From Sipunculus nudus (taxonomy: Eukaryota; Annelida; Sipuncula; Golfingiida; Sipunculidae): DNA of 64,000 bases. Both the position numbers and the translations under genes were made by a program. Below are positions 21,999 through 63,240 of the stretch, one piece after another. Below the pieces are notes generated by a model. It searched no databases. It saw only the letters and a program-made list of their open reading frames with translations, and was not told the DNA's origin. The stretch lies in the NCBI GenBank assembly GCA_026874595.1, contig CM049317.1:46648401-46712400 (forward strand). Reading direction: 5' to 3'. Positions within the stretch are counted from its first letter, which is position 1, and every line of letters starts with the position of its first letter.

Positions 21999-22421
21999 TA
22001 TCCGCCAAAACGAAGTTTTTGACCGGGTTCCGCCGCCGTGGAGTTCGTTTCCGGAGAACTCCTCTGAGACTACTGGATGGATTTTTCCGAAACTCACACA
22101 AATTATCAGGTCACATGTGAACTGGTGCCTAACCAAGTGACCTTGACCTCTGACCTTTCCTCTCTGCCCAGTGTCCGTTTGTGCATCTGTTTCCACACAT
22201 AAACCCAGACACATTTAATAAGGACATCTGGTGGCAGTTCAGACAAACCAAATCACTCATAACTTCCCATTGGCTAAGTTTGTTTTGTAACTACTTGCCT
22301 TTCAACTACAGCACTTGTGCAGCCATGCGGTCATCTAAGTTACATGGTTTTTCTTTTTGTCAACATTACTTTGCTTAACAGTGTGTAGGTAAACAAGCTC
22401 ATGCTTCCCTTAAAGAGGCGT
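21999..22421 (+). repeat. TATCCGCC-family head joined to a 215-bp unique-looking insert
   Basis: It begins with the TATCCGCCAAAAC head seen at 22548, 25363 and 35545 and shares about 200 bases of head sequence (ggagaactcctctgagac, ctgacctttcctct). From 22207 it switches to a segment repeated only at 27285-27492. No 3' terminus follows. Confidence 0.65.
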
Positions 22422-22547
22422 TATAATAACTTTTCTTCACATGAATTACTTAGAGTTCATTTATAATTGAATGTATGCAAATTAAGCCAGAAATTGTATA
22501 AATTCTATAGAAATATAGAAATAGATGTGAATATTCCGCTTAAATTT

Positions 22548-23725
22548 TATCCGCCAAAACAGAGTTTTGCGGATACTATGTTTTCAGCCCCCCGCCGCCG
22601 CGTCCGCGTAGGTGTCCGGAGAACTCCTCCGTAACCACTGGGCGGAATTTTACAAAACCCGGGATTATGTTCGGGTCACATGTGAACTGCTGCGCCCCTA
22701 TTTTGTTTTGACCTCTGACCTTTCCTCTGTGCTCTGCGTCCATTTGTGCGTCTGTTCCAACACATAAACCCACATATCTCGGGAACCGTTTGACCGATCA
22801 GGAAAAAAAAATTACACAAATGTAGCCCTTGGAGAGCTTTATAACATACACAAAAATGGTGGCGCCACCTGCAGCCATTTTTGTACAGCGTCGATCTGTT
22901 TGTCTGCCTTAGGTTAAAATCATTCATATCTCTGCAGTGGTTTGACCAAATTACCTGAAATGTGGTATGCGTATACATCCCGCATAGCTTTCTTGATTTT
23001 AAGACAGGTGGCACCACCTACATTCATGTTCACGCTGTAGACATCCATGCTTATATCTCCGGACTCGTTCAACCAATCAGAAAAATTTTTTTACACAAAT
23101 GTAGCCCTTGGATAGCATTATAACATACACAAAAATGGTGGCGCTACCTGCAGCCATTTTTGCACAGCCTCCATCTGTTTGTCTGCCTTGGGTTAAAATC
23201 ACTCTTATCTCTGCAGTGGTTTTACCAAATTACCTGTAATTCGGCATGCATACATATCCTGGATAGCTTTCTTGATTTTATGACAGGTGGCGCCACCTAC
23301 ATTCACGTTCATGCTGCAGACATTAATGCTTATATCTCCGGAACCGTTTGTCCAATCAGGGAAAAAAATTTACACAAATGTAGCCCTTGGATAGCTTTAT
23401 AACATATACAAAAATGGTGGCGCTACCTGCAGCCATTTTTGCACAGCGTCCATCTGTTTGTCTGCTGTGGGATAAAATCACTCATATCTCTGCAGTGGTT
23501 TGACTTTTCCACATGAAATTTTGCATGTGTATACATCTTGGATAGTTTCTCGTTCAAATAACAGGTGGCACCACCTACAATCATGTTTATGTGACAGAGA
23601 TCCATTCTAATGTGTAACACATGTAACTCTATATCCCCTTGTCACTCAATCCATGCCTCACTTCACCCGTCCTTCTCTGATTTTGGCGGATACACGTAGT
23701 CTCTTGTTGACTACCTGTATTCTGG
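22548..23725 (+). mobile_element. Helitron/Helentron-like non-autonomous element (TATCCGCC family), complete copy
   Basis: The 5' head hairpin TATCCGCCAAAAC-AGA-GTTTTGCGGATA is at 22548-22575. The inner body has alternating modules with the palindrome GGTGGCGCCACC (22858, 23286) and one-base variants. Near the 3' end the head arm returns inverted (ggcgga, about 23686), followed by a hairpin GTAGTC...GACTAC (23696-23714), then CTGG at 23722-23725 followed by T. No coding capacity. Confidence 0.7.
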
Positions 23726-23744
23726 TTGATTTCAGTTATGATTA

Positions 23745-23986
23745 AGCCATAAAAAAAAGGTATGGTTCTCAGGCCCTTTTTTCAGAAATCAGTGTAGGCA
23801 TGCAATTTTTTTATACCTTTTTTTGTGTATGTTTAGATAAAAGTGTCATATAATCAGGGAAAACATGAAAATAACTGATTTCTTTGCTAAACAGGAAAAA
23901 GCATTACATACAAAATAAAATTTGTTGATGGGAGGGGTTAAAATTGACACAGTTGGTGCCAGAGAACCATACCTTTTTTTTTGGCC
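23745..23986. mobile_element. PIF/Harbinger-like MITE, copy 3 (shortened)
   Basis: It has the same ends (aaggtatggttctcaggc ... agagaaccataccttttttt ttggcc) but is only about 240 bases, with an internal deletion and degraded duplication (TTA/ATA). It sits 19 bases after the 3' end of the element at 22548-23725. Confidence 0.7.
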
Positions 23987-25362: not shown

Positions 25363-26536
25363 TATCCGCCAAAACAGAGTTTTGCAGATACTATGTTTTC
25401 AGCTGCACGCTGCCGCCGCATAGGTTTCCGGAGAACTCCTCTGTAACCATTGGGCAGAATTTTACGAAACCCGGGATTATGTTCGGGTCATATGTGAACT
25501 GCTGAGCCCCGATTTTGTTTTGACCTCTGACCTTTCCTCTGCGCTCTGCGTCCGTTTGTGCGTCTGTTTCCACACATAAACCCACATATCTCGGGAACCG
25601 TTTGACCGATCAGGAAAATTTTTTTGCACAAATGTAGCCCTTGGAGAGCTTTATAACATACACAAAAAATGGTGGCGCCACCTGCAACCATGTTTGCACA
25701 GTGTCCATCTGTTTGTCTGCCTTGGGTTAAAATCACTCATATCTCTGCAGTGACTTGACTAATTCACCTGAAATTCAGCATGCGTATACATCCTGGATAC
25801 CTTTTCTGATTTTATGACAGGTGGCGCCACCTACATTCACGTTTACGCTGCAGACATCCAAGCTCATATCTTGGGAACCGTTTGACCGATCAGGAAAATT
25901 GTTTTGCACAAATATAGCCCTTGGAGAGCTTTATAACATAAGCAAAACTGGTGGCGCCACCTGCAGCTATTTTTGCACAGCTCCTGTCTGTTTGTCTGCC
26001 ATGGGATAAAATCACTCATATCTCGGCAGTGGTTTGACATATTTGCCTAAAATATTTTGCAGGTTTATACATCCCCGACAGCTCTCTTGATTTTATGACA
26101 GGTGGCGCCACCTGCATTCTAGTTTATGCAGCAGACATCTAAGCTCATATCTTGATAACCATTTGACCGATTGGGCCAAAGTTTTGCATGTCTATAGTTC
26201 TCACATAGCTCTTTATCATACGCAAAACTGGTGGCGTCACCTGCAACCATTTTTGCTCAGCGTCCATCTGTTTGTCTGCCACGGGCTAAAATCACTCCTA
26301 TACATGTAGTGGTTTGACTTATCTGCCTTAAATTTTGCATATGTATACAACTTGGACGGCTTTCTGGATTTTGTGGTAGGGGGGGGCAACCTACATACAC
26401 AATTTGGCAGACATCCATGCTAATATGCAACACTTCACTCTATTTCGCCTTGCCACTCAATCCATGCCTCACTTCACCCGTTCCACTCTGATTTAGGCGG
26501 ATACACGTAGTTGCTTGTCGACTACCCGTATTCTAG
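25363..26536 (+). mobile_element. Helitron/Helentron-like element (TATCCGCC family), complete copy
   Basis: The head hairpin starts at 25363. Four perfect GGTGGCGCCACC palindromes lie at 25671, 25820, 25950 and 26101. The inverted head arm ggcggata is at about 26497-26504, the 3' hairpin GTAGT...ACTAC at 26507-26525, and CTAG at 26533-26536 followed by T. It is the same length class as the 22548 copy (about 1.17 kb). Confidence 0.75.
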
Positions 26537-27097: not shown

Positions 27098-30000
27098 GTA
27101 TTGAATTTTGATATTAAAGAGGTCTATTCCAATATCTGACATGTATTTACAAGAGATAATCCCTTTGACCTTTTATAAATATAGGCTTGAAAATGCTGAT
27201 CCTACCACACATAGATTGTGCATTGGTTTGTATGTATTTAGGTGTTTATGGGGGGGGGGGGGGGGGCACCAGAATAATCCAGACAGACACATTTAATAAG
27301 GACACCTGGTGGCAGTTCAGACAAACCAAATCACTTCCCATTGGCTGAGTTTGTTTTGTAATTACTTACCTTTCAACTACAGCACTTATGCAGCCATGCA
27401 GTCATCTAAGTTACATGGTTTTTCTTTTTGTCAACATTACTTTGCTTAACAGTGTGTAGGTACACAAGCTCATGCTTCCCTTAAAGAGGCGTCTATTTCC
27501 CCTTGCCACTTAATCCATGCCTCACTTCACCCGTTCCACTCTGATTTAGGCGGATACACGTAGTCGCTTGTCGACTACCCGTATTCTAGTTGTTATTTCA
27601 TGTCAGAGCAACTTAAGTATGTCCAGTATCTTAAACAAATATTTACTCCTGTGACAGGTTCACTTCCAGCCATGGTTTTTACCATGCCTCTCTCCCCGCC
27701 CCCTCCCCCCCCTCTTTAACTGATATATCTGGGAAGTCCAGATGAAAAACAGCACAAAACTACCCCCGAGTGCACCATTAAAGTCTAAATGTTCATAAGG
27801 GTGAGAGAAACCCATATGCATGTACCCCTACCCGTCCCCCACCCTTTACCCCCACCCTCCCCCTAGCTGTGTCACAGTGACCTCACTGGTTAAGCCACCT
27901 ACCCCTGCCCCCCTCTTTAACTGATATATCTGGGAAGTCCAGATGAAAAACAGCACAAAACTACCTCTGAGTGCACCATTAAAGTCTAAATGTTCATAAG
28001 GGTGAGAGATACCCATATGCATGTACCCCTAGCTGTCCCCCACCCTTTACCCCCACCCTCCCCCTAGCTGTTTCACAGTGACCTCACTGGTCAGCCACCT
28101 ACCCCCCGCCCCCCCCCCCCCCCTCTTAAACTGATATATCTTGGAAGTCCAGATGAAAAACAGCACAAAACTACCCCCTAGTGCACCATTAAAGTCTAAA
28201 TGTTCATAAGGGTGAGAGATACCCATATGCATGTACCCCCACCCGTCCCCCACCCTTTACCCCCACCCTCCCCCTAGCTGTTTCACAGTGACCTCACTGG
28301 TTAAGCCACCTACCCCCCCCCCCCCCACACACACACACACACACTTCTCAATCCTGAAATTCTCTATCCATCCTTGCAACCAGTGCTTTACCCAAAAGCC
28401 TAGCTAAGATATTGGCCATTAAGCCCATACCTTGTTGTTAAAATTTTAAATTTTGCAATGATCCACCTGGATTAATTTCTTGGCTTCCAAGGACTTGTTG
28501 TATTCCTTCACATATGTGCAGCACTAACTTCATGAACTCAAACAATTCAAACCATTGAAAGTTACCCTATATACCACTCTGTTCTGTAAGTTAGTAACTG
28601 TGACAGCAGTGTTGGTGGCATGTGGAGTACAACAATGTTGTCTTTTGTAGCTTGCTGACCCCCCTCCAAAGAGTGATGCTGTTTACTCAGAAGAACTCAC
28701 ACAACACCTTAATGAACAGATCAGGGTATGTACATGATTCATTTACTCTTATTTTATAACATGATCTGTATCTGTCTTTCGTTTGTCACCCATGAATTTC
28801 ACTTTGACTTGTATCAATGCATGCATGCCATGAATGTTGCAGTGCTTTTGATCTTGATTGCTTTATCAGTTATGTTAATAAGCTAGAATAAAGTACTGCT
28901 TTAACTTGTAATTCCTCAGTTTTCATGCAAGTTTAATGGTTTTTCGAGAATTGACAGATAGCTATACTGATAGCAGAAGCCATAACAATAGTTATGTCAT
29001 AGTGTTAGCTCAGAAATTATACATTTGCAGTGGGACATTAAAGGAGGTTCTGGGAGCTTTCTGACCTTTATAAAAGGTTAAAATAGTCAGTAAATGTGTA
29101 TTGTAAAGGTTTTTTATGCCCCCGCCACAAAGTGGCCGGGGCATATAGTTTTACCCATGTCTGTCATTCCGTCAGTCCGTCATTCCGTCATTCCGAAATC
29201 AAACAGTTGTATGGACTTTTTTTCGCAGTGCCTGCAGATATTGGCCTGATTTTTTGTGTGTGGGCAGATAATGACCAGTTACAGATCGAGTTCGCGTTTC
29301 GTCCTGGTTGACCTACTTTTGACCGTTTTACTGCTCCTAAACTTAGAATATTTCTTGAAAAATAGAAATTTTCATGACAAATACACATGTACAGACTTTT
29401 TTTCGCAATGCCTGCACATATTGGCCTGATTTTTGGTGTGTGTACAGATAATGACCAGTTACAGATTGAGTTCACGTTTCGTCCCAGTTGACCTACTTTT
29501 GACCGTTTTACGGCTCCTAAACTTAGAAAATTTCATGAAAAATAGAAATTTTCATGAAAAATACACATGTACGGATTTATTTTCGCAATGCCTGCAGATA
29601 TTGGCCTGATTTTTGGTGTGTGGGCAGATAATGACCAGTTACAGATCGAGTTCGCGTTTCGTCCCGGTTGACCTACTTTTGACTGTTTTATGGCTTCTAA
29701 ACTTAGAAAATTTCATGAAAAATAGAAATTTTATTGACAAATACACATGTACGGACTTTTTTTCGCAGTGCCGGCAGATATTGGCCTGATTTTTAGTGTG
29801 TGGGCAGATAATGACCAGTTACAGATCGAGTTCGCGTTTCGTCCCGGTTGACCTACTTTTGACCGTTTTACGGCTCCTAAACTTAGAAAAATTCATGAAA
29901 AATAGAAATTTTTGTGACAAATACACATGTACAGCCGTTTTTAGCCCTCAGCTCATAGGCTGATGGGCTATTGTCGTCACCCAAGCTGTCCGTCTGTCCA

Positions 30001-33000
30001 TCTGTCTGTCCGGTGTCTGTCCGTCCGTCCGTCCGTCCGTTCCGCGTCTGTTAACTTTTACCTTGTGAGCGGGATATCTCTAAAAGGATTCACCGTTGGA
30101 ATTTTATTTCATCAGTGAAGATGTATATTGATAAAATCTCGGTCAAGTTCGAAGATGGGTGACCTTGACCCATTTTTCTACATTTTAGAGCTTATTATAG
30201 AAAAACACTCAGAGGTTTATATCTCAGGAACCATTGTGTGGAATTTCACAAAACTTACTATGATCATTGAGACTGATGGTCTGTATGTGCTGCACAATTT
30301 TGGTGGCGCCACCTGCAGTTTCTGATTTTTTAATGAAATTTTATCCGATTTTTTCAATTTTGGCCTTTTGTGCAGGATATCTCTAAAGGTATTCAACACA
30401 GGAACTTCATTTCTTCAGTGCTATTGCATTATATTTACAAAATCTTGGTCAAGTTCAGAGATGGGTGATCTTGACCTACTTTTCAATATCACAGAGCTTA
30501 GTATAGAAAAAAACTTAGGAGCTTATTTCTCAGGAAGCATTTGGTGGATTGTTATGAAACATGGTATATACCTCTCCAATTTAAATTATAAATGATTATC
30601 AACTTTTGCTAATATTCTAGTTTCGCAATAAAATGCTTACAGATACTGGCCTAATGTTTGGTCTGTGGGCGCATAATGACCACTTACAGATCGAGTTCGC
30701 GTTTCGTCCCAGTTAACCTATTTTTCACCATATGACAGATCCTGAACATAGAAAATTTCATGAAAGACAGAAATTTTTATGAAAAATGCACATATATGGA
30801 CTTTTTTACACAATGCCTGCAGATACTGGCCTGATTTTTGGTGTGTTGCTTGATAATGACCCTTTACAGATCGAGTTTGCATTTTGCCCTTGTTGACCTA
30901 CTTTTGACCATACAACACTTCCTGAACTTAAAAAATTTTACAAAATTTTAACAAATGTTTCTAATTTGCCCCAGGCGGGGGCATTCGTGTTGTTCCGACA
31001 CATCTAGTTTTTTTCAAAGACCTATTTAACAATCTTTAACAAAAATTATAAATTAAGGTTATATTCTGTATTAATACTGAGGAGATGTGTAGTTTAATAT
31101 ACCAGCTCAAATTTTGATCATCCACCATAACGTTATTATTGAAGTTGATTACATCCCCAAGAAAATGTTGCACTGCACAAGCTACTTTTTAGCAGTTATG
31201 GTCATAACATATTATATATATATATTGCTTATCAAACTCTCTTAGCCTTTTCTTTTATTTAAGTATACATCTTACTTTACAACAAAATACTAAAATTATG
31301 AAAATAATGTACTAAAGATGGTTTAATAAGACTTTGCAAAGAATCTCTAAAACGCACATATATATATATATACAAATTAGTCACCTATTCATCACATGCA
31401 GGAACTAAAAGATGAATCTGGAAGACTATACAAGCTGCTCAGTGAACGTGACCTTGAACTTAGACAACTGCGAAAAAAGAACAAGTCTGCAGAGGCTGGA
31501 TTGACAAGTGGCCAGATGGCAAGTGAAGTGGCTGCCACCAAGATTGTTGACTTGTCGAAGAAAGTTCGTGAAATCACAGCTGAACTGGAGGCTGAGAGAA
31601 CCAAGTCCAAGCAAGCACAGAGACAGTGTCGAGATTTACAAATAGAGGTTTGTATATTTATATTTACAATATTGCTTTGTTGTTAACTTTTTATTAACAC
31701 TTCTGACTCATATATATTATTTGCACAGTTGCTTTCCAGTAACTCTAAGCAACAGATCCTTGTTTATTGCCTGGTTTGTTAGCAGGGTAAACATAACCTT
31801 TAGACAAAGAAAGTTCTAACTGGATTTTTTTAGATGTCTGAAAGAGATACTGATCGAAACCTGAAATTAGGTCTTGATGACATGAATCTTCTAAGGTATA
31901 CATGGTTGGAACCAGGTTATGAACACTGTGAAAATCAGACATTTGTCAGTGTTTAATGTTGCTGAATGCATATTTAACCTTATGATTAAAACTGAAATTA
32001 GTTATCTCTCATAAATTGTAGTTGAAACATCCCAATCTTTTTGTAATTTGCAGCTGTGATGATTAAAATCTAAAGTAAATTAAAAAGCTTTGATAAAAGG
32101 TGTTTTGATTCACAGCTTCAGAAAGTAACATCAGGAGAATCCAAGGCACCGCAGAAAAAATACCTGACGGAGGATGAAGAATCCAAGGTCAGTAACAACA
32201 ATATAAGAACATACATGCCTGTAAAAACACATACATACACATACACTATATCGTTAAATAGCACATAAATCAAAAACATATATGTATATATAAATAATAC
32301 ATACTTATAAATAGCACTCATCATACATAATTAACATGCACAAACATAAATGACACACACACATACATATGAATCCCCCAGTATACATCACATGAGCGAA
32401 TGAAAAACACACACCTGCCTGAATTATAAATACACACAACGATGACACTTATACACATACATATGAAAAATAAACAACATATCCAAATCAGTCATATGGA
32501 TTACAAGAATACATCTCAAGAGGAATATTATTTCTAATAAACTCTACCCCTATTTGAGCTTATGGCTGTTTTCTAAATTTTAGTTGTCCTAAATTTCCTT
32601 CAATCCTGTGAAAACAAATTTTCAGATGTACTGTCATTGTTTGCCTTAGATGAAGCCAGTGGTCAAGTGGTTTGTTTTAATCAGAAGTGTTCCAAATAAT
32701 TAAATATAACATTTTAATGGTTATGAATAGAGTTATATAATAACAATCCTGACTATGACAGATTGAAATGTCTGTTCTTGCATCAGTTACTGTTAAACCT
32801 CTGTGAAGGACCACCTGTGTAATAAGACCACCTGTGAATTAAGATCACCTGTGAATTAAGACCACCTGTCTAATAAGATCACCTGTGAATAAAGACCTTT
32901 TGTCAGTCCAACTGATGGTCTTATTACACAGGATTCACTGTATTACCAAACACCTGTGGACTGAGGATCCTTTTAGAAAATGCTTTGTGCAAAAAAAAAA

Positions 33001-36000
33001 TTTTTATAACTTAGACCAATCCTAGCTAGCTGGTGGCCATGGTGCTGCCGTCAGTTATAATTTTGTGCGTTCTTTAACAGGAGACAATGCAGCATGAATT
33101 AAAAAGTACTCAGGAAAAACTCAAGCAGGCAGAGAGTAAGTCAGCTGACCTAAGGAATCAATGTGCTGCCCTCAAACAGGAGCTCAAGGTCGCACATAAG
33201 GTCAGAATCAAATCAATGTTTTTGTCTACATTTAACCCCTTAAATATGATGATTGTGAAAATACATGTGATCTGCAGTTAATGTACCAGTTCTTTTTGTA
33301 AATAATGAATAGTTGAAATGTTTCACATTGCTCTTTAAGCTAAAATGATTTATAAATTCAAATTAGAAAGAGTGGAATATATTTATATATATTAATAGTT
33401 AATGGTATATTTAAAAATGCAATCATATGAGTCAATATAACAATGGAAAAAAATGGCATTTCATACACTGGATAGTCTGTCTATATTGTGATAATGATCA
33501 TTCCCGGCAGACTCCATCTTGGTGCTGTAACTTTTTATTTTCATCACAAGGTTTTAGAATCAGAGGTTGGAGAAAATGTGAACATCCAGAGTCTGCTTAA
33601 CTCCTCAAGCAACTGGAAGGGGCGACAACAACAGGTCATAACGTTACAGAAAAAGGTAAAACCTGGCTATGATTTGAAAAAGTTTTCATTATATAATTTG
33701 TGCGCTACAGCAAAGCTAAACATAAATATATACATATCATTGATTGTAGTCTTGGAGCTCCAGCAGGTAACCTTCAGTTTGAGCTTTGGTAGAAAACAAA
33801 GTCTCATGTTATTTATTATTGTTGGCTCTGCATGGTGTACCGTAAAATCTCCACTTAAAACCGCACTTCCGATTAAAACCGCACCCAGACTTCGCCAGAA
33901 TTCCAGGCGAGACACCGCGAGGGGCTCAAATACTAAGAACCCCCCTTTAAAACCGCACCAACTTTCGCTACGGAATGATTTGACAAAAGACAATCAAGCT
34001 ATCATCTAGAAATGAACACGCGTAGGTTGCGACTCGGTCATTCCTGTCCACTTTAAAAATTCCTTGGGCATTTTATTTAAACAAATGATAACACTTTTTT
34101 GCAGGGTCACTCAAGCATGAAGTTTGGGAAGACGTAAGGGCCGGTGAACCTCTGCCTGGTTATACAGATTTTATATTCCGTGCCGTATTCTTGTTTGCTA
34201 CTGATTTGTCATTATATTATCGAAAAAAATATTCTGCTGATCCATTTCAAGTCACTGTATATTTTAATTCTAAAAGTATTATTTTGAAATCTTAATTTTT
34301 GATGAAAATTCCATTTTCTGGAATTACTCGGAAGATTCAACTCATTTTCATACCGGTTACTTCGGTATTATCATCGTCTCATCGTACGTTGACATTGCTC
34401 CATGTCACAATATGCTGGTGCGTTTGAAAACATCGCTGGTCAACTAAATATCAAAGTAACTGAAGTTACCTTGTCGAGATACGCACGTATAGGAAACATG
34501 ACGCTTGAAAACGAGTGATTTTAAGGTCAAATTAAAGTGGCCAGTCCGGGTGAGCAAGTTTTTTACCTGAAGAAAGTTTCCGTGTGGAGAGCCATTTTGT
34601 CAAGGCAGTGTTCGCGCAAGGCACGCTGGGACGAAATAGGTGGCTATTCTATTTACCACCCACCGCGTACAGCCGTTCAAAATATTCTTAGCAGAATACC
34701 AGGGCGTTTCAACACATGGCGGCACTCAAACTTGATTTTAAAACGATCGTCTGCCATTGTGTGACTCTTTACGATGTCAGCTTTTTATTCATTTTACGTT
34801 TTAAACAAATAATCATTGCTAAATAATGCCGCAAATGGGTTAAAGTAGGCTTTTATTTCAATTTTGCTTGACCATTCCCAACGAAGTGGGCCGCTGTGTG
34901 TAACAGCAGGGTTGATGTAAACGTATTATTTGGTGACAATTACCAAGATTTTATAACAAGTTATATATCACACGAAAACTAATCAGCAATATTTAATTTA
35001 TAAATAATAAATAATCGTAAATAATACATTTACACACGGCGCCCATGCATGCTAAGAACAGCCTTCGAAAGTTGCAATGTTATCGCCCACGCGCCGGCCC
35101 AAAACGATGTCTGTCAGGAAGATATTCAGGAAACCCTTCTAGTATAAACCGCACAGTGCTTTCAGGAAATCAACCTGATTTCAAGATTTTGAATTTCTTG
35201 ATTAAACCGCGGTTTTAAGTGGAGATTTTACGGTAGTGCCATTTCAACCCTCTGACGTTAAAGAGTCTACAACCAGTGTCAGCGTACTAGCATTAGAGTG
35301 CTTTTACATCTTGCATCAAGGACCCACTATAAGGCCCTATGATGATGATGGTATTTTTGACAATGCTGCATGGCCCACAAGTTTGCTGTCACTTGACAAA
35401 AACCAGATCTTTTAAATGTATGCCCATTCTTTTTCCTATCATACCTGTCACATGTTGGTTAGTAGTAAGAAATGCCAAGAACAACTTGGAAATAACCACA
35501 GATTTTAGTAAGTTGTCAGGTTTCAGAGTTAATTCACCTAATTGTATCCGCCAAAACAGTTTTGCGGATACTATGTTTTCAGTCGGATGCCGCCGCGGCC
35601 GCGTAGGTGTCCGGAGTACTCCTCTGTAACCACTGGGCGGAATTTTACAAAACCCGGGATTATGTTCGGGTCACATGTGAACTGCTGCGCCCCAATTTTG
35701 TTTTCGCCTCTGACCTTTCCTCTGTGCTCTGTGTTCATTTGTGCGTCTGTTTCCACACATAAACCCACATATCTCGGGAACCGTTTGACCGATCAGGCTA
35801 AAAATTTTACACAAATGTAGCCCTTGGATAGCTTTATAACATACTCTAAAAATGGTGGCACAACCTGCAACCATTTTTGAACTGTGTCCATCTGTTCATC
35901 TGCCTTGGGATAAAATCACTCATATCTCTGCATTGGTTGGACTTATCCACCTAAAATTCGACATGTATATACATCCTGGATAGCTTTTTGGATTTTGTGA

Positions 36001-39000
36001 CAGGTGGCACCAACTACATTCACGTTTACGCTGCAGACATCCAAGCTCATATCTCAGGAACCATTTGACCGATCAGGCTAAAAATTTTATACAAATGTAG
36101 CCCTTGGATAGTTTTATAACATACACTAGAAATGGTGGCACCACCTGCAACCATTTTTGCATAGCGTCCGTCTGTTTGTCTGCCTTGGGCTAAAATCACG
36201 CATATCTCTGTAGTAGACTTATCTGCCTAAAGATTTTGCGTGTTTATACATCTTGGATCGCTTTCACGATTTTTTTCGGCAGGTGGCGCCACCTTCATTT
36301 ATGTGACAGCGTTCTGCATTTATGCTAGGTGGTGCAACCTACATATACATTTTGGCTGCAGACATCCATGCTAATATGCAACACACCTCACTCTATTTTC
36401 CCTTGCCACTCAATCCATGCCTCACTTCACCCGTTCCACTCTGATTTCGGTGGATACACGTAGTGGCTTGTCGACTACCCGTATTCTAGTTATAACATGG
36501 AGATGAGACTTTCATAGTTTCAAAATAATCAGATAAAAGATCATGAATTACATATTCTATCACATAAATTTCGTATAAGGATTCTGTGGCTCAGGAGTAG
36601 ATAGCAGGACTCAAAATCAGGTTGTAAGTTCAAATCTTGGCTGAGAAGCAGGGAGATATTCACGGTCAGGCCCCAACCCAGTGTGAGCACAAGTGCATCT
36701 TTGGGAGGTTCCTCAGTGTTATGACCCAGCAATGGGGATGATTACACACCCAGGACCTGCAGGTATGGTGGACACCGGGCCTGGGTGACACCAGGATGTA
36801 AAAATAAAATGACAGGAAGTGAATATCATATAAACTTGTATATTTTACATGGATTGTACAAATAGTTATTATAACTAATCAAGGCACTCTCCATGGCTCT
36901 AATGATGGCATTCAGCCAGTAGTCTGTAGAGGTGGAGGAAGCCAGAGAACCCAGAGAAAACCACTGGCCTGAGATGGGCAACTAAAGCCCACACTCACAG
37001 CCACAAAGGGGGGTCGAACCCAGGTTGCCAGCCGAGAAAGCCAAGTGTTTTACCCCTCCACTGTCCAGGGTACCACCCTGTCACAAAGTCCAAGACTGAA
37101 ATGGAACTCTGTAGATGTAATACTTAGCTTAAGAATTAGATAAGTCAGCATTAAAAAACTGGAGGTAGTTACCTCCTCAAGAAAAAGAGTTTTTAAGAGT
37201 GAAAAAAAAATCTTATAAGGAATTTTACTGTTACAGGTATCAGAGCTGAAGGCACAACTTGGTCAGTCACAGATGGGCAGTGTTCTCAGTTTACGCATGG
37301 ACCATGACTTGGAAAATGAATTGATGGGGTCATCCAGGACTCGAAGGTCAGGGGTTGAAGAACGTCACCACGAGCAGATAAGGAAACTGGAAAAGGAGAG
37401 ACGAGAGGCTCAGGAGGTACAGTAATGGAGGTGAAAGTGAGGTTATTGAGAATATGGGTGTAGGATTTATCCTGTAGATAAAATAAAACAACACAGCAAT
37501 AAAAGTTTTAAATAACCATATGGCGGTAAGGTCTGTGCAAATTTGGAATGTTTGTTATTACGAAGCCAAAACGTATACTGCCGGTCTGAGGGTTGAACAT
37601 GATATACTGCCGGTCTGATGGTTGAATGTGATGATTAAGGAGCTATACAATCATGCAGATACTGTCAAAAGATTTCCCCTTAGGTTGATTAACATTTAGC
37701 TTTAGCAGGACATAATGACTTGAAAAATGCTGTCTTAGACATGGGCCTGGTGGCAATGTCTGTATCATTCAAGTGCAAGAGAACAAGTGAGGTTTTTTTC
37801 ACCCAGCCCCAGGGCAGTCTATTTTCCCATAGGTGTAGTGTATTTATGATTCAGTCCACTTATTGCTGAGAGGGGTGGTAGGCAGCTTTGATGTCTGACA
37901 TTGGTAAATCAGTTCTTGGGATGGATGTGTGGAAGGTAGGAGTCAGGAGAGCTGATGTCATTGATTTGTGAGTATGTTAAAAATGCGGCTGTATGTTCTG
38001 GTAGCACAGGCCTCCTCAGTCAAAAGGATAGAAGACCACAAATATTCATTAATAAGAACAGTATGCATCATTAAAAGTTCATTTTAAACATCATAAGAGA
38101 TCTTTTGGTTAACATATCATCTTAAGTACATGTGTTTGCAAATATTTCACAGCTCATGCATATTCATATTATTCACAGTTTGTAAACAGTTAATGTAACT
38201 GTATATAAATATAATCCACAGAAAGCAGCATCAGAACTGGAGGCTCTGGAGAAAGACCATGCTGCCCTCAAGTCCAAAGTGGAAGCCTCAAAAGCCAGGT
38301 ATCGTCATTTACAAAGTGTCATAATGGCAAAATTAGTCTTACCAACTTTTGTCAGCTGTGAAAACTATGTTTGTCATAAGAGAAACTGAAAAAATCAGGT
38401 CCATGAATTGATATAATGCACACTTCATTATTTCAGAAAACAGTATTGCATATGAATAGTGCAAGTCAGGAATTTCTCAGAATGGATCTAATTAAAGAGA
38501 TGCTGTGCCGCTACTTGTTTTGACTTCTGGATGAAGCATTTTAACTGCATTTTACTTTGGCTAGAATTATCAGTAAAGGAAAATTCAAACCCACCCACTT
38601 AACATATTATTTCCCCTGATTTGCATATTAATTAAAATATACAAATAAAATTTACAATCTTTTGTTGAATAAATTTCACATATAAATGGTAAAGTTGCCC
38701 AAGTAAGGCCTGTTTATCAATACTCTGATGAAAATTTTGACCAGTTTTAATATACATCGTAAGGTAAATGCCCTTTCTATCCATATTTGTCAGGTTATGC
38801 ACAAGTGATCATTACAAATCTTCTCGTTATTTCAGAAATAAGGTTTTATCTGGTGAGCTGAAAACTTTGAAACAACAGATACAGACTCTGTTAGAAAAGG
38901 GAAAACACGATGATGAGCTGATCCAGGCACTCATGGTAGGTCACATTAGGATATGTATTAAACTTTAACATTTCTGTCTTTGTCATGTTTCACAAGGCAA

Positions 39001-49579: not shown

Positions 49580-50690
49580 TTTTAGCAAACCTGTGAGCTT
49601 ATGTGATGGCACGGATTCCTCCATCAGCAATCCGCTGTCTGCCGTCCATGGGTGTAAGTCAGAAACCGTCAGAGCTAGCAGCTCTAAATTCATGTAAGAA
49701 TTAGTCATGTGAAACTTGGTGCCCTAGAGCTTATTATCGGTATCTGCATTAATTTAGATTTTATAGAGAAAAAGTTTAAAAAACTTTAAAATCTTCTTCT
49801 CTGAAACTGTCCAGCCAAATTGTCCAATATTTCACAGAAATGTTCCCTGGGACAATCTCTCTCAAGTTTGTTCGAATGGTTCCAGTTAAGTGATTTTTGT
49901 CCCAGTTACAGGAAGTTGAACTTAGTCATTTGCATGCTTAAATTACAATCTGGGAAATGACTAGAGCTATCATCATCAAATTTTATGTTAATGTAGGTCA
50001 CTCGAGTCATATCTGAAATTGAGGTATTGATGGCGCCACCTGCATTGGTCTTTTTGTACGGGGTCAATGGTGCCTGAAGCATACAGAGGGCTACAAAAAA
50101 CTTCTTCTCTGAAAGCGTAAAGCCAAATTGTTTAATATTGCACAGAAATGTTCCTAGGGTAGTGCTTTCATAAATTTGTTCAGTTGGTCTCTGTTCAATG
50201 ACTTTTGGCTGAGTTATGGGAAGCTGGATATAGTCAGATGTCGTAGCAGCCCATTTCTGCTCAGTGGCTACAAAGATCTTCTTCTCAAAAACCACAGCGT
50301 CAAATTCTTTAATCTCACACATGAATGATCCTTAGATGTTGGTTATTCAAATTTGTTCAAATGGTTTTGATTCAGTGATTTTCTTAGATTTTATACAGGA
50401 AAAGTTAAAAAAAGATATAAAAATCTTCTTCTCCAAAACTTTCCAGCCAAATGTTTCAGTATTTCACAGAAATGATCCCTAGAACAATCTCTCACAGATT
50501 TGTTTGAATGGCTCCAGTCAACTTAGTCATCTGTGCAAAAAAGCATACTAAACTTAAAGTCGCAGTCACAGCTGGAGCTGTCATCACCAAATTTTATGCC
50601 AATGTTTATCACATGAGTCATATCTGAAATTGAGGTGTTGGTTGCGCCACCTACATTGATCTGTTTTTACAAGCAAAAATGTAAGTTTAG
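49580..50690 (+). repeat. Hairpin-headed repeat with tandem modules (same family as 19260 and inverted 2400-4510)
   Basis: The head 'agcaaacctgtgagcttatg' (49585 on) is a degraded AGCTCAC/GTGAGCT hairpin followed by ctgccgtcc. Modules with 'cagttacaggaagttgaact', 'gctatcatcatcaaatttta' and 'gaggtattgatggcgccacc' repeat at about 270-400-base spacing. Confidence 0.7.
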
Positions 50691-50718
50691 ACTCTTCTAG
50701 CTTATATACACTGTTTTT

Positions 50719-52975
50719 AGTTCACTCTGTGAACTTATGCCATGGCGCAGCGTCCGCCGTCCACTGTCCACTGTCAACTGTCCACCGTCCACCGTCTGTT
50801 ACCAAATATCTCAACAGCCACAGCAGCTACCTTCATGAAACTTTGCAGAATTATTGATCATGGGATGGAGATGTAAAAATAAGCTTTTGGTGGCGCCACC
50901 TATGTTGACCTACTTTCTGCGGGACGAAATGGTCTTTTCAACTTCTTCCAAGATAAGTCATAAAGTATTAATATTTTGGCCTTCATATCATAGTCAACAG
51001 TTCCTTAGAAGAAGGGGAATAATTTGTGTGTAAATTCAGTCAGGTCATTTTCAAGATAGCGTCTCTACGGAACTTCAAATCGTGTCTAGTGCAAAATATG
51101 ACAACTTGATGTGTTTCCATACAGGATGTATTGTCTGATACCAAATATCTGAGGAACTGCTGCAGCCTTCAGTTTCAAATTTCACAGGAATATTGATCAT
51201 GTGACTGCTGAATGATTTTGACCTGCAGGTGGCGCCACCTATGTTGACCTACTTTCTACAGGCTGTAATGTTTTTTTCTGCTTTTTCCAAGATATGTGTC
51301 CGCAAGAACTCCTCCGTAACCGCTGGGCGGAATTTTACGAAACCCGGGATTATGTTTGGGTCACATGTGAACTGCTGCGCCCCGATTTTGTTTTGACCTC
51401 TGACCTTTCCTCTGCGCTCTGTGTCCGTTTGTGCGTCTGTTTCCACACATAAACCCACATATCTCGGGAACCGTTTGACCGATCAGGAAAATTTTTTTGC
51501 ACAAATGTAGCCCTTGGAGAGCTTTATAACATACACAAAAAATGGTGGCACCACCTGCAACAATGTTTGCACAGTGTCCATCTGTTCATCTGCCTTGGGT
51601 TAAAATCACTCATATCTCTGCAGTGACTTGACTAATTCACCTGAAATTCGGCATGCGTATACATCCTGGATAGCTTTTCTGATTTTATGACAGGTGGCAC
51701 CACCTACATTCACGTTTACGCTGCAGACATCCAAGCTCATATCTCGGGAACCGTTTGACCGATCAGGAAAATTATTTTGCACAAATGTAGCCCTTGGAGA
51801 GCTTTATAACATACACAAAAAATGGTGGCGCCACCTGCAACCATGTTTGCACAGTGTCCATCTGTTCATCTGCCTTGGGTTAAAATCACTCATATCTCTG
51901 CAGTGACTCGACTAATTCACCTGAAATTCGGCATGCGTATACATCCTGGATAGCTTTTCTGATTTTATGACAGGTGGCGCCACCTACATTCACGTTTACC
52001 CTGCAAACATCCAAGCTCATATCTCGGGAACCGTTTGACCGATTGGGCCAAAATTTTGCATGTGTATAGATCTCACATAGCCCTTTATCATACGCAAAAC
52101 TGGTGGCGCCACCTGCAGCCATTTTTGCACAGCTCCTGTCTGTTTGTCTGCCATGGGATAAAATCACTCATATCTCAGCAGTGGTTTGACATATCTGCCT
52201 AAACTTTTGCAGGTTTATACATCCCCGACAGCTCTCTTGATTTATGACAGGTGGCACCACCTGCATTCTAGTTTATGCAGCAGACATCCAAGCTCATATC
52301 TTGGGAACCGTTTGACCGATTGGGTCAAAGTTTTGCATGTGTATAGTTCTCACATAGCTCTTTATCATACGCAAAACTGGTGGCGTCACCTGCAAACATT
52401 TTTGCTCAGCGTCCATCTGTTTGTCTGCCACGGGCTAAAATCACTCATATACATGTAGTGGTTTGACTTATCTGCCTTAAATTTTGCATATGTATACAAC
52501 TTGGACGGCTTTCTGGATTTTGTGGTAGGGGGGGGGCAACCTACATACACAATTTGGCTGCAGACATCCATGCTAATATGCAACACTTCACTCTATTACC
52601 CCTTGCCACTCGATCCATGCCTCACTTCACCCGTTCCACTCTGATTTAGGCGGATACACGTAGTCTCTTGATGACTACCCGTATTCTAGTTTGAGTATAA
52701 ATTCAGTCAAGTCATTTTCAAGATGGCATATCTACGGAACTTCAAATTGTGACAATTGCAAAATTTGACAACTTGATGTGTTTCCAAACATGATGTATTG
52801 TCTGTTACCAAATATCTTAGGTACTGCTGCAGCCTTCAGTTTCAAATTTCACAGGAATATTGATCATGTGACTGCTTAATGATTTTGACCTGCAGGTGGC
52901 GCTACTTTCAGCAGGCTGTAATGGTCTTTTCCGCTTTTATCCATAATATATCATTAAGTATTTATTTGTTATAAT
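50719..52975 (+). repeat. Hairpin-headed repeat (AGTTCAC head), interrupted by a TATCCGCC-family element
   Basis: The head AGTTCAC-TCT-GTGAACT (50719-50735) is a perfect 7-bp hairpin, then TATGCCATGG and a gtccgccgtccac tract. Modules with 'gtaaattcagtcaggtcatt', 'caacttgatgtgtttcc' and 'ggtggcgccacctatgttga' (perfect palindromes at 50889 and 51228) are interrupted at about 51297 and resume at 52690. Confidence 0.7.
51297..52689 (+). mobile_element. Helitron/Helentron-like element (TATCCGCC family), 5' truncated, nested
   Basis: The 5' head is missing; the copy begins at 'gtccgcaagaactcctccg', inside the family consensus. Perfect palindromes lie at 51824, 51973 and 52102. The 3' hairpin GTAGTC-TCTTGAT-GACTAC and CTAG (52686-52689) followed by T are intact. 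The outer repeat continues directly after the T. Confidence 0.75.
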
Positions 52976-53099
52976 CTGCCAAAATAGAGTCTCCTCTGAG
53001 ACTCTTGGACTGATCTTTCTGAAACATTTTTTAATCACCTGCCAAAATGCACAGTAATTTACAGGGAAAATTAGACCCCTGGGTCTCTTGTTTAAGAAA

Positions 53100-53580
53100 C
53101 TGTTAGGTTGATTGGTTTAACCTTTACAAGAATTGTTCTATGGTATTGTTGTGTCACTTTTATAAGAATAGGTTGGGTAGATGCAGCTGTAAAAAAGCAG
53201 TGTAGCCAATTGAAAAAGGCTTTCAGTGTTGGAAAACAGATTTGGCAGCAAGGCAAGTTTCAACATGTTAGGTCAAGAGGTCAATCAGTGCACTCAGGTG
53301 CAGTCCAGACATCACCTTGACAATTGACCTGGCTCTGCCTGGTGTCCAGATGTGTCTAGACTCACCGTCTAGACGTCTAGAACCTGGCAACTGTGTCAGA
53401 TTTTACAAAAGGAACAGTTACGCTCTGTATCTATGCATAACTTTGGCAGACTGCCAACCATTTCAGATTTTTCAACAGGTCAAGCTTCAGTCTGTAAGAG
53501 CCAGTGGTAAGTTTCAGTCTGTAAGAGCCAGTGGTGCGGTTACATGTGTCACATTAGGTACCCTTGACCTGAGGGAAAGC
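53100..53580 (+). repeat. Partial copy of the 20040-21300 repeat
   Basis: Blocks such as 'ataagaataggttggg', 'catgcataactttggcagac' and 'agtgcactcaggtgcag' match the modules at 20040-21300, with a short internal duplication (gtttcagtctgtaagagcca twice near 53475-53530). Confidence 0.6.
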
Positions 53581-53599
53581 TGAGCCTCCATTGCCAGTA

Positions 53600-56500
53600 T
53601 GCATTAGTAGGTGTGACTCAATACCAAGTCTAAAAGAGGAACTTGTTCTTAGATTTTACAGGGAAAAAGCTAAAAAAAATTTTTAAATGTTCTCCGAAAC
53701 CATGCTGCCAAATTGTCTGTTCATCTGTCCCAATATCCCTCCCTGGCAAAAAGAACATATCGCAAATATCCCGACTGATACATCCTAGTATTAAAATGTC
53801 CTAGTCCGAAATGTGCAGGTCCGAAACGTCCATTTGGCTGTAATTATAATGACTAAGGTAGATATGCAAGACATGAGAAGATCAGTATTAAATTTTAGAA
53901 ATAAACATTCATACTCCAAAACTTTGCTCAGGTTCGCATTAGGTCTGTAGGCCTTGTTATATCTGAAGTGAAACAATCATAATCGGCGGTTCATGTGTGC
54001 AAAGGAACGTGACTGCTGTAAAGGTTTAATAAACCACAATCTGATTTGAGAGATGTAATGTTTAAAATTAGATTTTTATTCACAAACGTTTTGGTCAGAC
54101 TGTAGTGCTACATAGATCACTTGTCAGTGGCAAGCACCACTTGGAAATAGGACGTTCCTCCAAGTGGTGACGCCAACTTTATACCTCTGTCATGATTACA
54201 TCACATAATTCTGAATTAGGAAATGATACTACGTCCATCGTTAAAATTTGCTGTGATATAATACGTTAAAAAGGCCAGCATATCAGCCTGGACAGGCCAA
54301 AATTGAATTTTCTTATTGCCATGAATGCCAATTTGATGTATCAATCTGCCTGTTTGACATTGTGTCTGTTTTATTTATGTATCTGCAACTTAGTTTTATT
54401 TTAAGTTCAGAATATCGTAACAAATAAATGTATGTTGCATGTTGAACGCTAAAATACTTGTTAGCTGGCGAATATGTCATATGCCGTACGTCCCAGCTAC
54501 TCTCTGAGTATAAGTATCTAGTCCCAGTCCCCAAACATAAATATACTGGTCAACTGTGCTATTTTTAATGAGTAATAGTTTATAATAATATGTCGGATAA
54601 AAATACCTTGATTTTTCTTTCTCTTTATCAACTTTCTGTTCCTATGCAGTGTCACATTAATGCTCATAATTAAATCTCATTGCTTTACACAACTAACAGA
54701 ATTAATACTTTTATATTAGGCATATTTTTCAGGATGTTGTGTGCCTGTAATATTCGTGATTTAAAGTTTAAACATTAAGATTATATATTCCGCTTATTGC
54801 GCGATTCTGTTAACATGAATGGATGAATTGGGGTTTATATTCTCGCGCGCACTTTATTTCGCATTATTGTCAATCTTATATCCCATTCCACAAAGGAATA
54901 TCCGCTTTACAGCATTGTATGGTACGTTTTTGACATTTTGTAATCATTTTAAACACAGGAGCGCATATCAGGTTATGATATTATTACAACTTTCCACACA
55001 GACGATGTAGACTCTGATTAATTCAGTAACAGATGCTAAGGGTTCAGTATTCCTTGAACAGTCATCAAGAAGACCAGTAGTGACAAATATTTGCACAACA
55101 CGTGGGCCACCTTTTATTAACTATTTATACACATCTGATTTGTACACAGATTATCCTAAATAAACCGTGGGACTTGTTTGTTCTCTGTGTTACGTGGATG
55201 ATCACTGTTCGTGCACTCAGTGCCCACACTGCTGGATATGTATGTACGATGATATAACGAAATCACCGAACCTCGAATAATCATTGTTTTTATGTTTCTT
55301 TTAAAAGGGCCGGTCGACTGCTTGGTTCCTCTGTGGTAATTCTGCCTTGCAACATAAATCCCTTACAGTTCAATTAACCTGTAACTTTCCTTCTGTGGGA
55401 GCTAATATTTTACAAAACTTGAATTATCGTACTTAAATTAGCACAAGCATGTAAGGGTATGGTAATAAAATAATGAGATGGGTTATAGTGCAATATTTTG
55501 GACAAAGTTTAAAGAACTTGTGATATCAACTCAATATTAATCTCTCATCTTGTAAATCGCGCGGGATGTAAAGTGCTTTTACTTGAGCTAAATTCTGCAT
55601 TCTTCAGCTCACGCTCCCACTCAAACCAGTTTGAGGCACAGAGCCACCGCATGAAGGCTTAAATTCTGCAACTTGGGAAATTAAATTTATTCTTCAGTAT
55701 GAGTATATATCCAGTATAACGAAACTGTCAATACAGGCAACTAATCTTAGGTGCAGAGTTGCCAATGAGAATTCCCACACATCATTAAACCATGGCGTCT
55801 CTCTCTCATTCATTCATATATTTATATAAACAAATCCCCCTGCAACCACTACATTGGCTAGAAGGGTAAAGTGAATACACAATATACTACCCAATCACAT
55901 GAAGTAAACAGTTTATTGAATATACTCCTGACAAATGTAAGATTTAAGTACACCTACAGTGCACTTATACATTATCTACAGCGATATCATTTGTCTATGC
56001 GTACACCGGTTATTATTACAGCGAGCTTCCACCTGGGCATGAAGTTATCAGATATAATTCCTTCCGGGTTCAGAGCCCCGTTGTCATTCAGTACTAGCTC
56101 AGCTACCAAGACAAAAAATAATTGATCCAACATTTCTGATCGATAATTTATGTGTTTAAAATGATTTACTAATTCACGAGGTCTGATGGCCAGCCAGGGT
56201 GATTTCTTGTACCGTTAAAAAATTCTTCATCCACTAATGTGAAGGCATTTGAATGTAGAAAAGGTTATGTTCATTTATTTAGTCAAATCATAATAATAAT
56301 CAAAATATCCATACTAGGTGTAAACAAATGAGAAAAGCTGTAAATGAGAGAGAAGCCTATATTGAACTCATTTAGTGTGATTTGAAATAATACACCGGTA
56401 GTCAGGCTAAATCTTATAAGGGAATTCAACTGAATTCACAGATACACAATGATTCAAAAAGGTTTACCCAGGCTTCGATACCGCTTTGGATAAGACAAAT

Positions 56501-60122: not shown

Positions 60123-60203
<81 letters not shown>

Positions 60204-61130
60204 TTACTTTATGGAAACAACACTTACATGAACGAATTTTTATGAAAAGTACGTTTCAAAATAACAATAATATTTATAATAATAATAATAAAAATAATAA
60301 CAATGATAATAATTTTAATAAAAATAATTATTATTATAATAATATACTAATGTATGGCACCATATCATGAAAATTAAGTTATTATCAATAATTATTGTAA
60401 TAATTATGAAAATACCGATAAAATTGATAACAATTTTATATCATATTTTATGTTTTTATATTATGATATCATTATGTAAGTATAGATCGATGTTTGTAAT
60501 AATAATGATAATTATAATATAATATCAATAATATATAAAAAAATAAAATATTAATAATAAATTAATAAGATAAATATAATTTTATAAATTATATATATAA
60601 TTTTTTTTTCTAATATATATATTATTGATTATTTTTAATGACATTTAAATTGATCATGTTTGCCATATATTCCATTAACTGAATGTGAGGAACTATTATG
60701 TTGATAACTATACACTAATAAGCATGGATTAGAAACCATGTTTACATATAAAATATAAAAAAAAAATAAATGGAATATGTTGCTTAAAATTATATTCCAT
60801 ATGTACAATTAATGCTGCAGTAGCAGAATTTTGTTTGAAATATGAAAAAATTGTATTATATAAAATTATTGAATAAAGAAATATTAAACAAAATATGAAT
60901 TTACCAACAAGAGATCATTGTTTAATTTTAATCTATTTATCTTTTTATTTTAAATGAAAATTAATATATTTATTTATCTTTACAATAACATTAACTTAAA
61001 TTGAATATCAGTGGTTAATGTGTCTAAATTTAAGGTAACCCTTAACTATTCTTCAAAATGTCCGTCTTTTTTAACTATCGTTAAATTTAGAAATACAACG
61101 TGCATACAATCTTACGATATATTTTTACCA
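59800..61130. repeat. Very AT-rich region with (TA)n(GA)n and (AAT)n tracts
   Basis: (TA)n at 60127-60169 runs into (GA)n at 60170-60200. Imperfect aataat/taataa repeats fill 60255-60345 and 60480-60610. No gene was seen. Strong curvature or a matrix-attachment role is possible but not shown. Confidence 0.7.
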
Positions 61131-61139
61131 CTGAAAGGA

Positions 61140-61450
61140 CTATTTTGTATGGCGTAATCCAAAGTCTCTTTGTATGACGTCACACAGCGCATGGGCCCGC
61201 GTAGTGATAAGAAATGAGTGCGGGTCATGTCGTCTGCTATGTCTGTGACAGACAGTCGAGGATATTTCGGCCGGTTGAACACAAAGTTCCGTCAAGAAGT
61301 TCAAAATTTTATAGTTTCTACGTACTTTAGACTTCATTTTCACGGAGGGAAAGATTATTATTGGATTACGCTTTCTCTACAACGCTTGATTAGCGGATAA
61401 ACGCAGCCAGTTGTTGGGTCTTCGCGCGCCGACCGATGTCAAGGATGCTG
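61140..61450. promoter_or_regulatory. Candidate promoter: CpG-enriched island with perfect CRE
   Basis: It lies between AT-rich flanks. The stretch has TGACGTCA (61175-61182), gggcccgcg, cggccgg and cgcgcgccgac. An ATG at 61214 opens MSAGHVVCYVCDRQS... for about 33 codons up to an unremarkable sequence. I recognise no protein. Direction is not established. Confidence 0.3.
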
Positions 61451-61859
61451 GTTGAATTCCCGGATGTCCGGTGTCCGAAGTCGGTGGTGATGCAAGACGT
61501 AAATAAATTGCTATGTTTAGCAAAGGATTTCTGACAAACTTTGCTGTGTGACCATGAATAATCAAATCTTGCTTTTTTAAATTTCAGGAATGTTACCTTT
61601 TCACATGATTCATCTATTACCAAGAGATTGATGTTAATAATTATCATGTTCATGTACTTCTTGGTTGTTTACTGTTATTTTAATGTTTGACATTTTCTTT
61701 TCTTTTATTTGAATAACAATGTCATCGTGACTGAAAGGTATTAATAAGTATATACAAATGCATATTCTTTTTGCAGATGCCAACATATGCTGTCATATTG
61801 CTTTTTTTTATTATGCATAGCCATATGTTACAGATTTTCCAATGTTATTTGTTATTATT

Positions 61860-63240
61860 AGCTCAGCTGACTATAAGTCATCTGAGCTATAGTCATGGTC
61901 CATTGTCCGTCGTCCGTCCGTCTGTCTGTCCGTCCGTCCGTCTGTCCGTCTGGATGTCCGTCCGTAAGACTGGCACGTTTCGACACCGTTTGACCTACGA
62001 ATCTGAATTTCGGCATACAGTTAGATGTCCCCATAATCTCCTACCATGCCAAAAATTGGGTCAATAGGACTTCGTTCCTTTGAGATATTAAGGAAAAACC
62101 TCAATTTTTTATTAGAAATCCATTTTCACACTTCAGGACTGCCTAATATCAAAACCACTCATCTGGTTTTCTTCATTTTTACCATGAATATTCCTCTATA
62201 TAGTTCCTATGTACATGCCAGATATGAAGTCAGTATTATATAATTTAAAAAAGTTATGGGCCCAAACATAATGGACTTTGTAAAAAAATCAGGAAGATAT
62301 TTGGTCACTTAAGACCAAAAGTGTTAAAGGTAGGGACTTTTTTCCAGTAATACTATTTTAAATAATCAAAATTTAATTGTATACCAAAAATTAGAACAAA
62401 ATCTGTTAAATTTTTTTAAATATTGGCAAAAATATAAAATTGGTACCTTAAATTTTGCCCAACTTTGGCCATGGCACGTTTTTTTCCTGTAAGTACTGTG
62501 GATTTTAATTTTCACACCATGTATACATAAGGATTTAATCTGTTAAAATCTGAAATTTGAAAATAAAAGCTGCAAAATTAGGCTAGTTATTGAATTTTTT
62601 TGGAGGCTCTTGTTGTATTCCCTTACATTGTCAAGCAGTCCACTTTGATGACTGTAGGTCATTCAGTGCACATCTCTATGCTCCCCAGGCTGTTGACATA
62701 ATTTTAGATGTCCCAAAAATCTCCTACCATACCGAAAATTGGGTCATTAGGACTTTGTTCCTTCGAGATATTAAGGGAAAAAACTCTGTTTTCCATAAAA
62801 AAAAAGCCATTGTTACACTTCAAGGCTGCCTAATATCAAAACCACTGATCTGTTTTTGATCGTATTTAGTATTCACATTCTTTTATACATTTGCTATAAA
62901 CATATTAAAAATTAGCTCAGTATTGGGTATTATTTTGAAGTTATGGGCCAAAACATAATGCAATTTTTTTAAAAAATCAGGAAATATATTTACTCACCTA
63001 ACATGAGAATTGCTGAACCTAGAGACTTTTTTCAGGAATATAACTTTATTTAATCAAGATTCAGTTGTTTACCCAAAATTAAATCTGAATTTTGCAAATT
63101 TTTCAAGTTATTAGCATAAATAAAAAATCAATACCTTAAATTTTGTCCAACTTTGACACTGTTGATTTAATTTTCCCAGCATATATGCATAAGGATTTAT
63201 TCTTTTAAAATCTGAACTTTCAAAAGAAATTGATTGGAAT
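61860..63240 (+). mobile_element. Hairpin-headed interspersed element (AGCTCAGCTGACT family)
   Basis: The head is a 29-base hairpin, AGCTCAGCTGACT-ATA-AGTCATCTGAGCT (61860-61888, one mismatch in 13 pairs), then ATAGTC and a long gtccgtccgtctgtctgtcc tract. The body is two tandem modules offset by about 683 bases (ttagatgtcc at 62021 and 62704; 'gttatgggcc' at about 62255 and 62940). The truncated sister copy is at 2165-2391. The 3' terminus could not be fixed. Confidence 0.7.

Follow-up and report, generated by a model that had tools for sequence, protein, structure and literature searches.

Non-autonomous Helentrons have been described as HINE or DINE-1 elements in Drosophila, mite and mosquito. 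In the parts of that account drawn on here (PMC4067079), they combine a 5' subterminal inverted repeat (subTIR), which is palindromic or accompanied by an inverted repeat (IR), with a microsatellite, tandem repeats, a 3' subTIR and a 3' palindrome; they occupy T-T targets at which no target change was found, and they have a partner with the same ends and with Rep, helicase and endonuclease domains. The Cg_HINE elements of the Pacific oyster are described in similar terms in the portion of PMC7492417 used here, with 5' subTIRs of 11-12 bp, complementary IRs of 7-12 bp, tandem satellite-like repeats, a palindrome behind a 3' subTIR, and T-rich insertion sites free of target-site duplication; several of them also have a GTCY/GTCC microsatellite. 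The Helitron2 elements of Fusarium, known as FoHeli (PMC5148889, in part), have an asymmetric terminal inverted repeat, one or both of their ends form a hairpin, and PCR has suggested a circular intermediate for them. Here, we describe hairpin-headed repeats in a 64,000-nucleotide stretch of the Sipunculus nudus genome (GenBank assembly GCA_026874595.1, contig CM049317.1, positions 46,648,401 to 46,712,400 of the forward strand), referred to below as the window.

Several Helentron-type families are scattered through the window, which belongs to a genome of ~1.4 billion bases, and seven families, designated A to G, were defined within it. They are new families of a known kind, and their hairpin heads are the 5' ends of HINEs. 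It is very probable that the repeats are HINEs, that is, non-autonomous Helentrons (Helitron2-type), that they make up at least seven families and that a Rep-helicase-endonuclease Helentron moves them in trans. The first-pass annotation of this DNA had proposed non-autonomous Helentron- or Helitron-like elements. The Helentron part of that proposal was borne out, as the listed HINE features are present and the genome holds a Rep/PIF1/endonuclease element with family F ends. The Helitron part was not, since the elements do not as a rule show a 5' TC, a CTRR end or insertion between A and T. The elements resemble HINE, DINE-1 and Cg_HINE in anatomy, the level at which they were compared. Unlike the mite HINEs, whose 3' copy lies 38-60 bp from the terminus, they carry a 3' copy that ends ~19-34 nt from it (six families), and they further differ by a CT(A/T)G end and, in most families, a flawed 5' hairpin (PMC4067079). 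The fungal FoHeli elements lack an endonuclease domain and have other terminal sequences (PMC5148889).

All seven families follow a common plan (Table 1). A 5' arm of ~10-13 nt makes a hairpin with a local right arm, and a 5' subTIR that is palindromic or has a local IR is thereby present in every family, the G hairpin being weak (predicted -0.1 kcal/mol). On the 3' side, an inverted copy of the 5' arm is followed by a palindrome, short in D, and then by CT(A/T)G before a T. This 3' subTIR, near but not at the 3' end, had been claimed for two families and proved to occur in every one of the seven, in some copies at least, although the copies in the window's own C and E elements are decayed. 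Behind most heads, a TAT word and a GTCC-like tract had been noted. A TATG or ATAG-like word does stand there in most families. Read by eye, the tract stands out in B, C, E and F and is fainter in D and G; A lacks it and carries a GCCGCC tract. The pearl elements of bivalves, with their ACGG-type (= CCGT) microsatellite and tandem core repeats, are alike by description. Most families also contain tandem repeats, of ~279 bp in A, 180 bp in B and ~339 bp in E. Among the stop-free stretches listed within the elements, none exceeds 141 amino acids (49906-50331, minus strand).

The six heads named by the first-pass annotation are all present as short hairpins where it had placed them. In families A (22549), B, C, E and F, the head opens with an A that directly follows a T; by this measure the starts proposed for B (29116), C (29943), E (50719) and F (61860) hold, and that of A moves from 22548 to 22549. 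The D head at 39329 is present in a decayed copy whose start, judged from eight relatives, is probably ~39326. The arms differ between families while the structure is kept, as had been suggested; to this can be added that arm and 3' copy agree and that the right arm is flawed. In E and G, the sequence just behind the head is alike by eye, the arms differ and the 3' copy follows the arm in each, which fits a joint change of arm and copy.

Hairpin heads starting with A after TT and followed shortly by at least four GTC words occur seven times on the two strands of the window, against a mean of 0.95 and a maximum of 4 in 40 dinucleotide shuffles. Five of the seven are the B, C and E heads and two F heads; those at 49505 and 27359 (both minus strand) lie outside all families, and the A and D heads fail this filter. 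A scan for the full anatomy (head hairpin, inverted 3' copy, 3' hairpin and CT(A/T)G before T) covered 335 kb made up of the window and fetched loci, many of which had been chosen for likeness to these heads. It returned eight matches, five in A, two in B and one in C, whereas reversing the sequence left no match. One A match spans a head and the tail of a neighbouring A copy, and the single elements number seven. A loose three-part scan that omitted the 3' hairpin proves nothing, because its 22 matches show no clear excess over its controls (28 reversed, 8 Markov); scanning the loci for heads alone was unspecific as well (61 versus 27 reversed).

The elements had been said to end in CTRR. The end is instead CT(A/T)G: all ten fetched E tails and three of ten fetched F tails (the other seven being CTAG) end in CTTG, as do D and G in the window, and CTRR therefore does not fit. 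Within the window, A ends in CTAG or CTGG, B, C and a decayed F-like element (F') in CTAG, and D, E, G and the second F element (F2) in CTTG; one fetched A tail (L087) reads CTAC. In A, the 3' copy is TTTAGGCGGAT in eight of ten tails, with one TTTTGGCGGAT and one TTTCGGTGGAT, and the fetched copy L086 showed no tail. The B copy is GGCGGGGGCAT in all four recognised tails, the window's own element corresponding to L071, and no tail was recognised within the fetched piece at the other eight of 12 loci. One intact C tail was found (L044). The F copy, ATTCAGCTGAGCG, is present in 10/10 fetched tails, in the tail of the Rep-bearing Helentron described below and in the window's F' tail. The E copy is CACAGAGTGAAC in nine of ten fetched tails, altered in L117 and decayed in the window, whereas D tails vary across eight old copies. 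No F tail was recognised within 1.5 kb of an F head, these elements being longer, and the E tail, not reached in three fetched copies, was later located by genome search.

The left flanks of the elements are T-runs. Exactly five Ts precede 31 of the 38 forward F heads, the seven paired E heads are preceded by five or six, and the fetched E and F ends have T flanks on both sides. In family A, TTGT stands before the arm in 10 of 11 heads, which fits an element that begins slightly outside the arm, by a few nucleotides; in the mite HINEs, two to four nucleotides separate the subTIR from the 5' end (PMC4067079, in part). Two nested insertions can be compared with paralogous empty sites. C lies inside a B repeat at a filled site reading GCCG-T5, then C, then T3-CGCAAT, where uninterrupted B repeats typically read GAC-T7-CGCAATG. 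E lies inside another B repeat (L124/L114) at GAC-T5, then E, then T4-CACAATG, compared with an uninterrupted GAC-T7-CACAATG. At neither site is there a duplication beyond one or two Ts, which are assignable to either side. A target-site duplication of fixed length was thus not found at these two sites apart from those Ts, from which a TT duplication would look no different, and the same ambiguity over Ts has been reported in PMC4067079 (in part). The expectation of insertion without duplication between A and T or between T and T accordingly holds for T-runs, with no duplication beyond Ts at the two sites, and A/T insertion is not the rule. The window also contains a three-deep nest, in which a headless A copy with a canonical 3' end lies within E, itself within G. 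Finally, C adjoins the same B sequence in seven of 12 B loci (the window's own, L074-L077, L079 and L081), and B and C therefore moved as one composite element.

The families are dispersed and many-copied. Genome searches, in which the best 40 first-look candidates were scored for each query, gave 2251 candidates for A, 2180 for D, 1474 for F tails, 716 for B, 596 for E, 401 for E tails and 115 for F heads. Family E is young, because 32 of the best 40 of its 596 head matches, the window copy included, are at 99% or 100%. Matches to the Rep domain Helitron_like_N were found at no fewer than 143 places (at least 143, with 150 of 195 candidates scored). Among the best 40 of the 1474 F'-tail candidates, one tail follows a Rep match at a distance of 4.6 kb downstream, both being on one strand, at C7:23948175-23959818. 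This partner element spans 11,644 bases from an F'-type head at 23948175, which has the same right-arm flaw as F, to an F tail ending at 23959818. It contains Helitron_like_N (23955169-23955651), PIF1 (E 5.7e-22) and Exo_endo_phos_2 (E 3.7e-7) domains; the association of Rep, helicase and endonuclease is the published mark of Helentrons (PMC4067079; PMC5148889, both in part). Its ~350-bp repeats are ~75-84% identical to those of the window's F' element, which also has the same tail. A Rep-helicase element with matching ends, of the kind that the first-pass annotation had anticipated, is thus present for F in one copy with broken frames, and none was found for the other families compared (A, B, D and E).

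Other Rep stretches were also followed. Starting from long intact Rep open reading frames, 8 kb adjoining the element at C7:31578448 and 1.7 kb adjoining a relative at C11 were read, and no head was reached in either; the two are 98% alike over the 1.7 kb compared, which places their 5' ends further out. Two Rep stretches on C7, L011 and L023, combine Helitron_like_N with an OTU-type cysteine protease domain, L011 also having DUF6570, and the ends of these elements were not found.

Several facts weigh against a Helentron source for all the families. The partner is known for a single family, F, in a single copy; its reading frames are broken, and this copy is therefore probably not active. The 9,845 of its 11,644 bases that were read contain one F head and one F tail. 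Families A, B, D, E and F were compared with 117 of the 143 Rep places. In the best-40 lists, the window's own copies aside, no A, B, D or E head, E tail or F head came as close as 20 kb to a Rep, and the F tail on C7 is the only listed place within that distance. The two rival classes nonetheless fare far worse. Canonical Helitrons (Helitron1) have a 5' TC, a 3' hairpin with CTRR and insertion between A and T, and the CTAG that follows the palindrome in some families would suit them. However, the arms start with A after T instead of TC, as the TTGT before the A heads also illustrates, CTTG closes the D, E and G elements and some of the F ones, T flanks the fetched E and F ends on either side, inverted subterminal copies are present and the F partner has an endonuclease domain; this assignment is very improbable. 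Cut-and-paste elements with terminal inverted repeats, resembling miniature inverted-repeat transposable elements (MITEs), are less probable still. They too are short, high-copy and inverted at their ends, and elements of the present kind were earlier annotated as MITEs (PMC4067079, in part), but here the inverted copy is subterminal at the 3' end with a second palindrome after it, and the two nested insertions lack duplication apart from Ts, a TT duplication being indistinguishable from Ts of the element. The reading of these repeats as HINEs settles the nature of many repeats in the window and links one non-autonomous family to a Rep-helicase-endonuclease source through shared ends.

From work on the class, transposition of these HINEs would begin with Rep nicking the 5' end within a T-run. 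One strand would then be unwound as far as the 3' palindrome, which would act as terminator, and a circular or single-stranded intermediate would join a new T-run without target duplication. The 3' hairpin serves as terminator in this class.

The heads of these elements share a further property, in that pairing between the 5' arm and the right arm is interrupted. The flaw falls within arm positions 5-8 in A, B, C, D and F. It takes the form of a bulge in A and C, with a small internal loop in C copy L044, and B, D and F have a mismatch there; the G head has two mismatches at positions 4-5, and the E head has only 7 paired bases. It is kept within families, in 11/11 A, 13/13 B, 8/8 C and 38/38 forward F heads, and all 11 E heads have the 7-bp form; the head search patterns fixed most of the arm, leaving the flawed base open in B and F and not in A or C. 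By contrast, at the position of the flaw the typical 3' copy of every family agrees with the 5' arm (the majority reading in D), with mismatches of its own at positions 1 and 12 in F and at position 8 in most A copies. Predicted DNA pairing energies, in kcal/mol for 5' arm with 3' copy / 5' arm with right arm, are -18.0 / -14.5 in B, -16.2 / -10.4 in C (window head, -14.6 / -11.7), -14.4 / -10.8 in D and -14.2 / -12.0 in F (2391 copy, -16.8 / -12.0). In E (-15.5 / -6.9) and G (-16.3 / -3.5), the 5' stretch set against the 3' copy was longer than the one set against the right arm. A is typically -10.7 / -10.4, a difference within error, and -14.3 / -10.4 in the 22549 copy. The 5' arm is thus predicted to pair better with the far 3' copy than with its own hairpin partner in seven of seven families, A being near equal. 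This agreement in direction is suggestive only, because the families are few and some 3' copies were found through matching to the 5' arm.

The literature searched, a few papers each covered in part, yielded no mention of the flaw or of a 5' arm that pairs better with the 3' copy, and the pairing rule may be unreported. The parts of PMC4067079, PMC7492417 and PMC5148889 consulted describe asymmetric inverted repeats without explaining their purpose. One possible account, which we regard as doubtful, is that the flaw is a built-in switch. The 5' arm would fold on its flawed, metastable partner first and, once single-stranded, re-pair with the matched 3' copy, and such end-to-end pairing could juxtapose the ends for circle formation or mark the true terminus of the element. 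If true, this would account for the agreement between arm and 3' copy beside a right arm that is one step off. Should the rule hold genome-wide, it would offer a testable explanation of the purpose of the asymmetric inverted repeats in Helentrons. Against it stand the base of seven families in one genome, the near-zero difference in A, the majority reading in D, the unequal lengths compared in E and G, and the location of the A to C 3' copies by matching to the 5' arm. We lean towards another account, in which the flaw is inherited drift, arm and 3' copy being kept as protein-binding sites and the right arm left loose with no role in pairing. Constancy within a family could reflect common ancestry, and there are only seven families. 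In oyster HINEs, IR arms of 7-12 bp stand beside subTIRs of 11-12 bp and perfect subTIRs are a minority in most elements (PMC7492417, in part), and imperfect palindromes overlap the inverted repeat in one fungus (PMC5148889, in part). Drift is less easily squared with a flaw that recurs at arm positions 4-8 in six families whose arms are unlike one another, five of which keep the outer and inner parts of the stem; this recurrence argues that the right arm is not free.

Table 1. Helentron-type features of the window, with position 1 as its first nucleotide.
Feature	Position	Strand	Structure
Family A element	22549..23725	+	Head hairpin ATCCGCCAAAAC-AGA-GTTTTGCGGAT; ~279-bp tandem repeats; 3' copy TTTTGGCGGAT; palindrome GTAGTC..GACTAC; end CTGG before TT
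Family A element	25364..26536	+	End CTAG before TT
Family A element	35546..36489	+	End CTAG before TT
Family A copy, headless	27280..27589	+	Canonical end CTAG before TT; left limit approximate
Family B element, contains nested C	29116..31007	+	Head ATGCCCCCGCCAC-AAA-GTGGCCGGGGCAT; GTC tract; 180-bp repeats; 3' copy GGCGGGGGCAT; palindrome; end CTAG before T
Family C element	29943..30620	+	Nested in T-run of B tandem repeat; decayed 3' copy; end CTAG before TTT
Family D element, old copy	39326..39831	+	Perfect core CCTGTCATATGACAGG; end CTCTTG before T
Family G element, contains nested E	49584..53956	+	Head AGCAAACCTGTGAGCT; 3' copy CTCAGGTTCGC; palindrome AGGTCTGTAGGCCT; end CTTG before TT
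Family E element, contains nested A	50719..53090	+	Head AGTTCAC-TCT-GTGAACT; decayed 3' copy; palindrome AGACCC-CT-GGGTCT; end CTTG before TTT
Family A copy, headless, inside E	51296..52689	+	Left junction within A (approximate); canonical right end CTAG before TTT
Family F head and GTCC tract, 5' part only	61860..61965	+	AGCTCAGCTGACT-ATA-AGTCATCTGAGCT
Family F element (F2)	1138..2391	-	Head; GTCC tract; 3' copy AGTCAGCTGAGC; palindrome; end CTTG before TT
F' element	16441..18272	-	Decayed head (limit approximate); ~350-bp repeats; tail ATTCAGCTGAGCGTCATGGCCCATGGGCCACTAG before TTTT

Some ends could be assigned beyond the elements delimited in Table 1. No tail for the F head at 61860 was found in the window, and the second F head is that at 2391 on the minus strand; for its element F2, a CTAG at 1129 was considered as the 3' end and dropped in favour of the CTTG at 1138 after tail comparison. 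G heads stand at 49584 (plus) and 4511 (minus), and G tails at 21898 and before 53956.

The window holds other repeated sequence as well. Three ~201-bp tandem copies with C runs occupy 27694-28326 and showed no link to any head or tail, and a 41-bp tandem repeat at 42764-43415 (sixteen copies, 94% match) has no link to the HINE families. Between the elements at 26904-38940, short exon-like open stretches were noted by eye and from the stop-free listing, and they look like one host gene whose introns are filled by elements.

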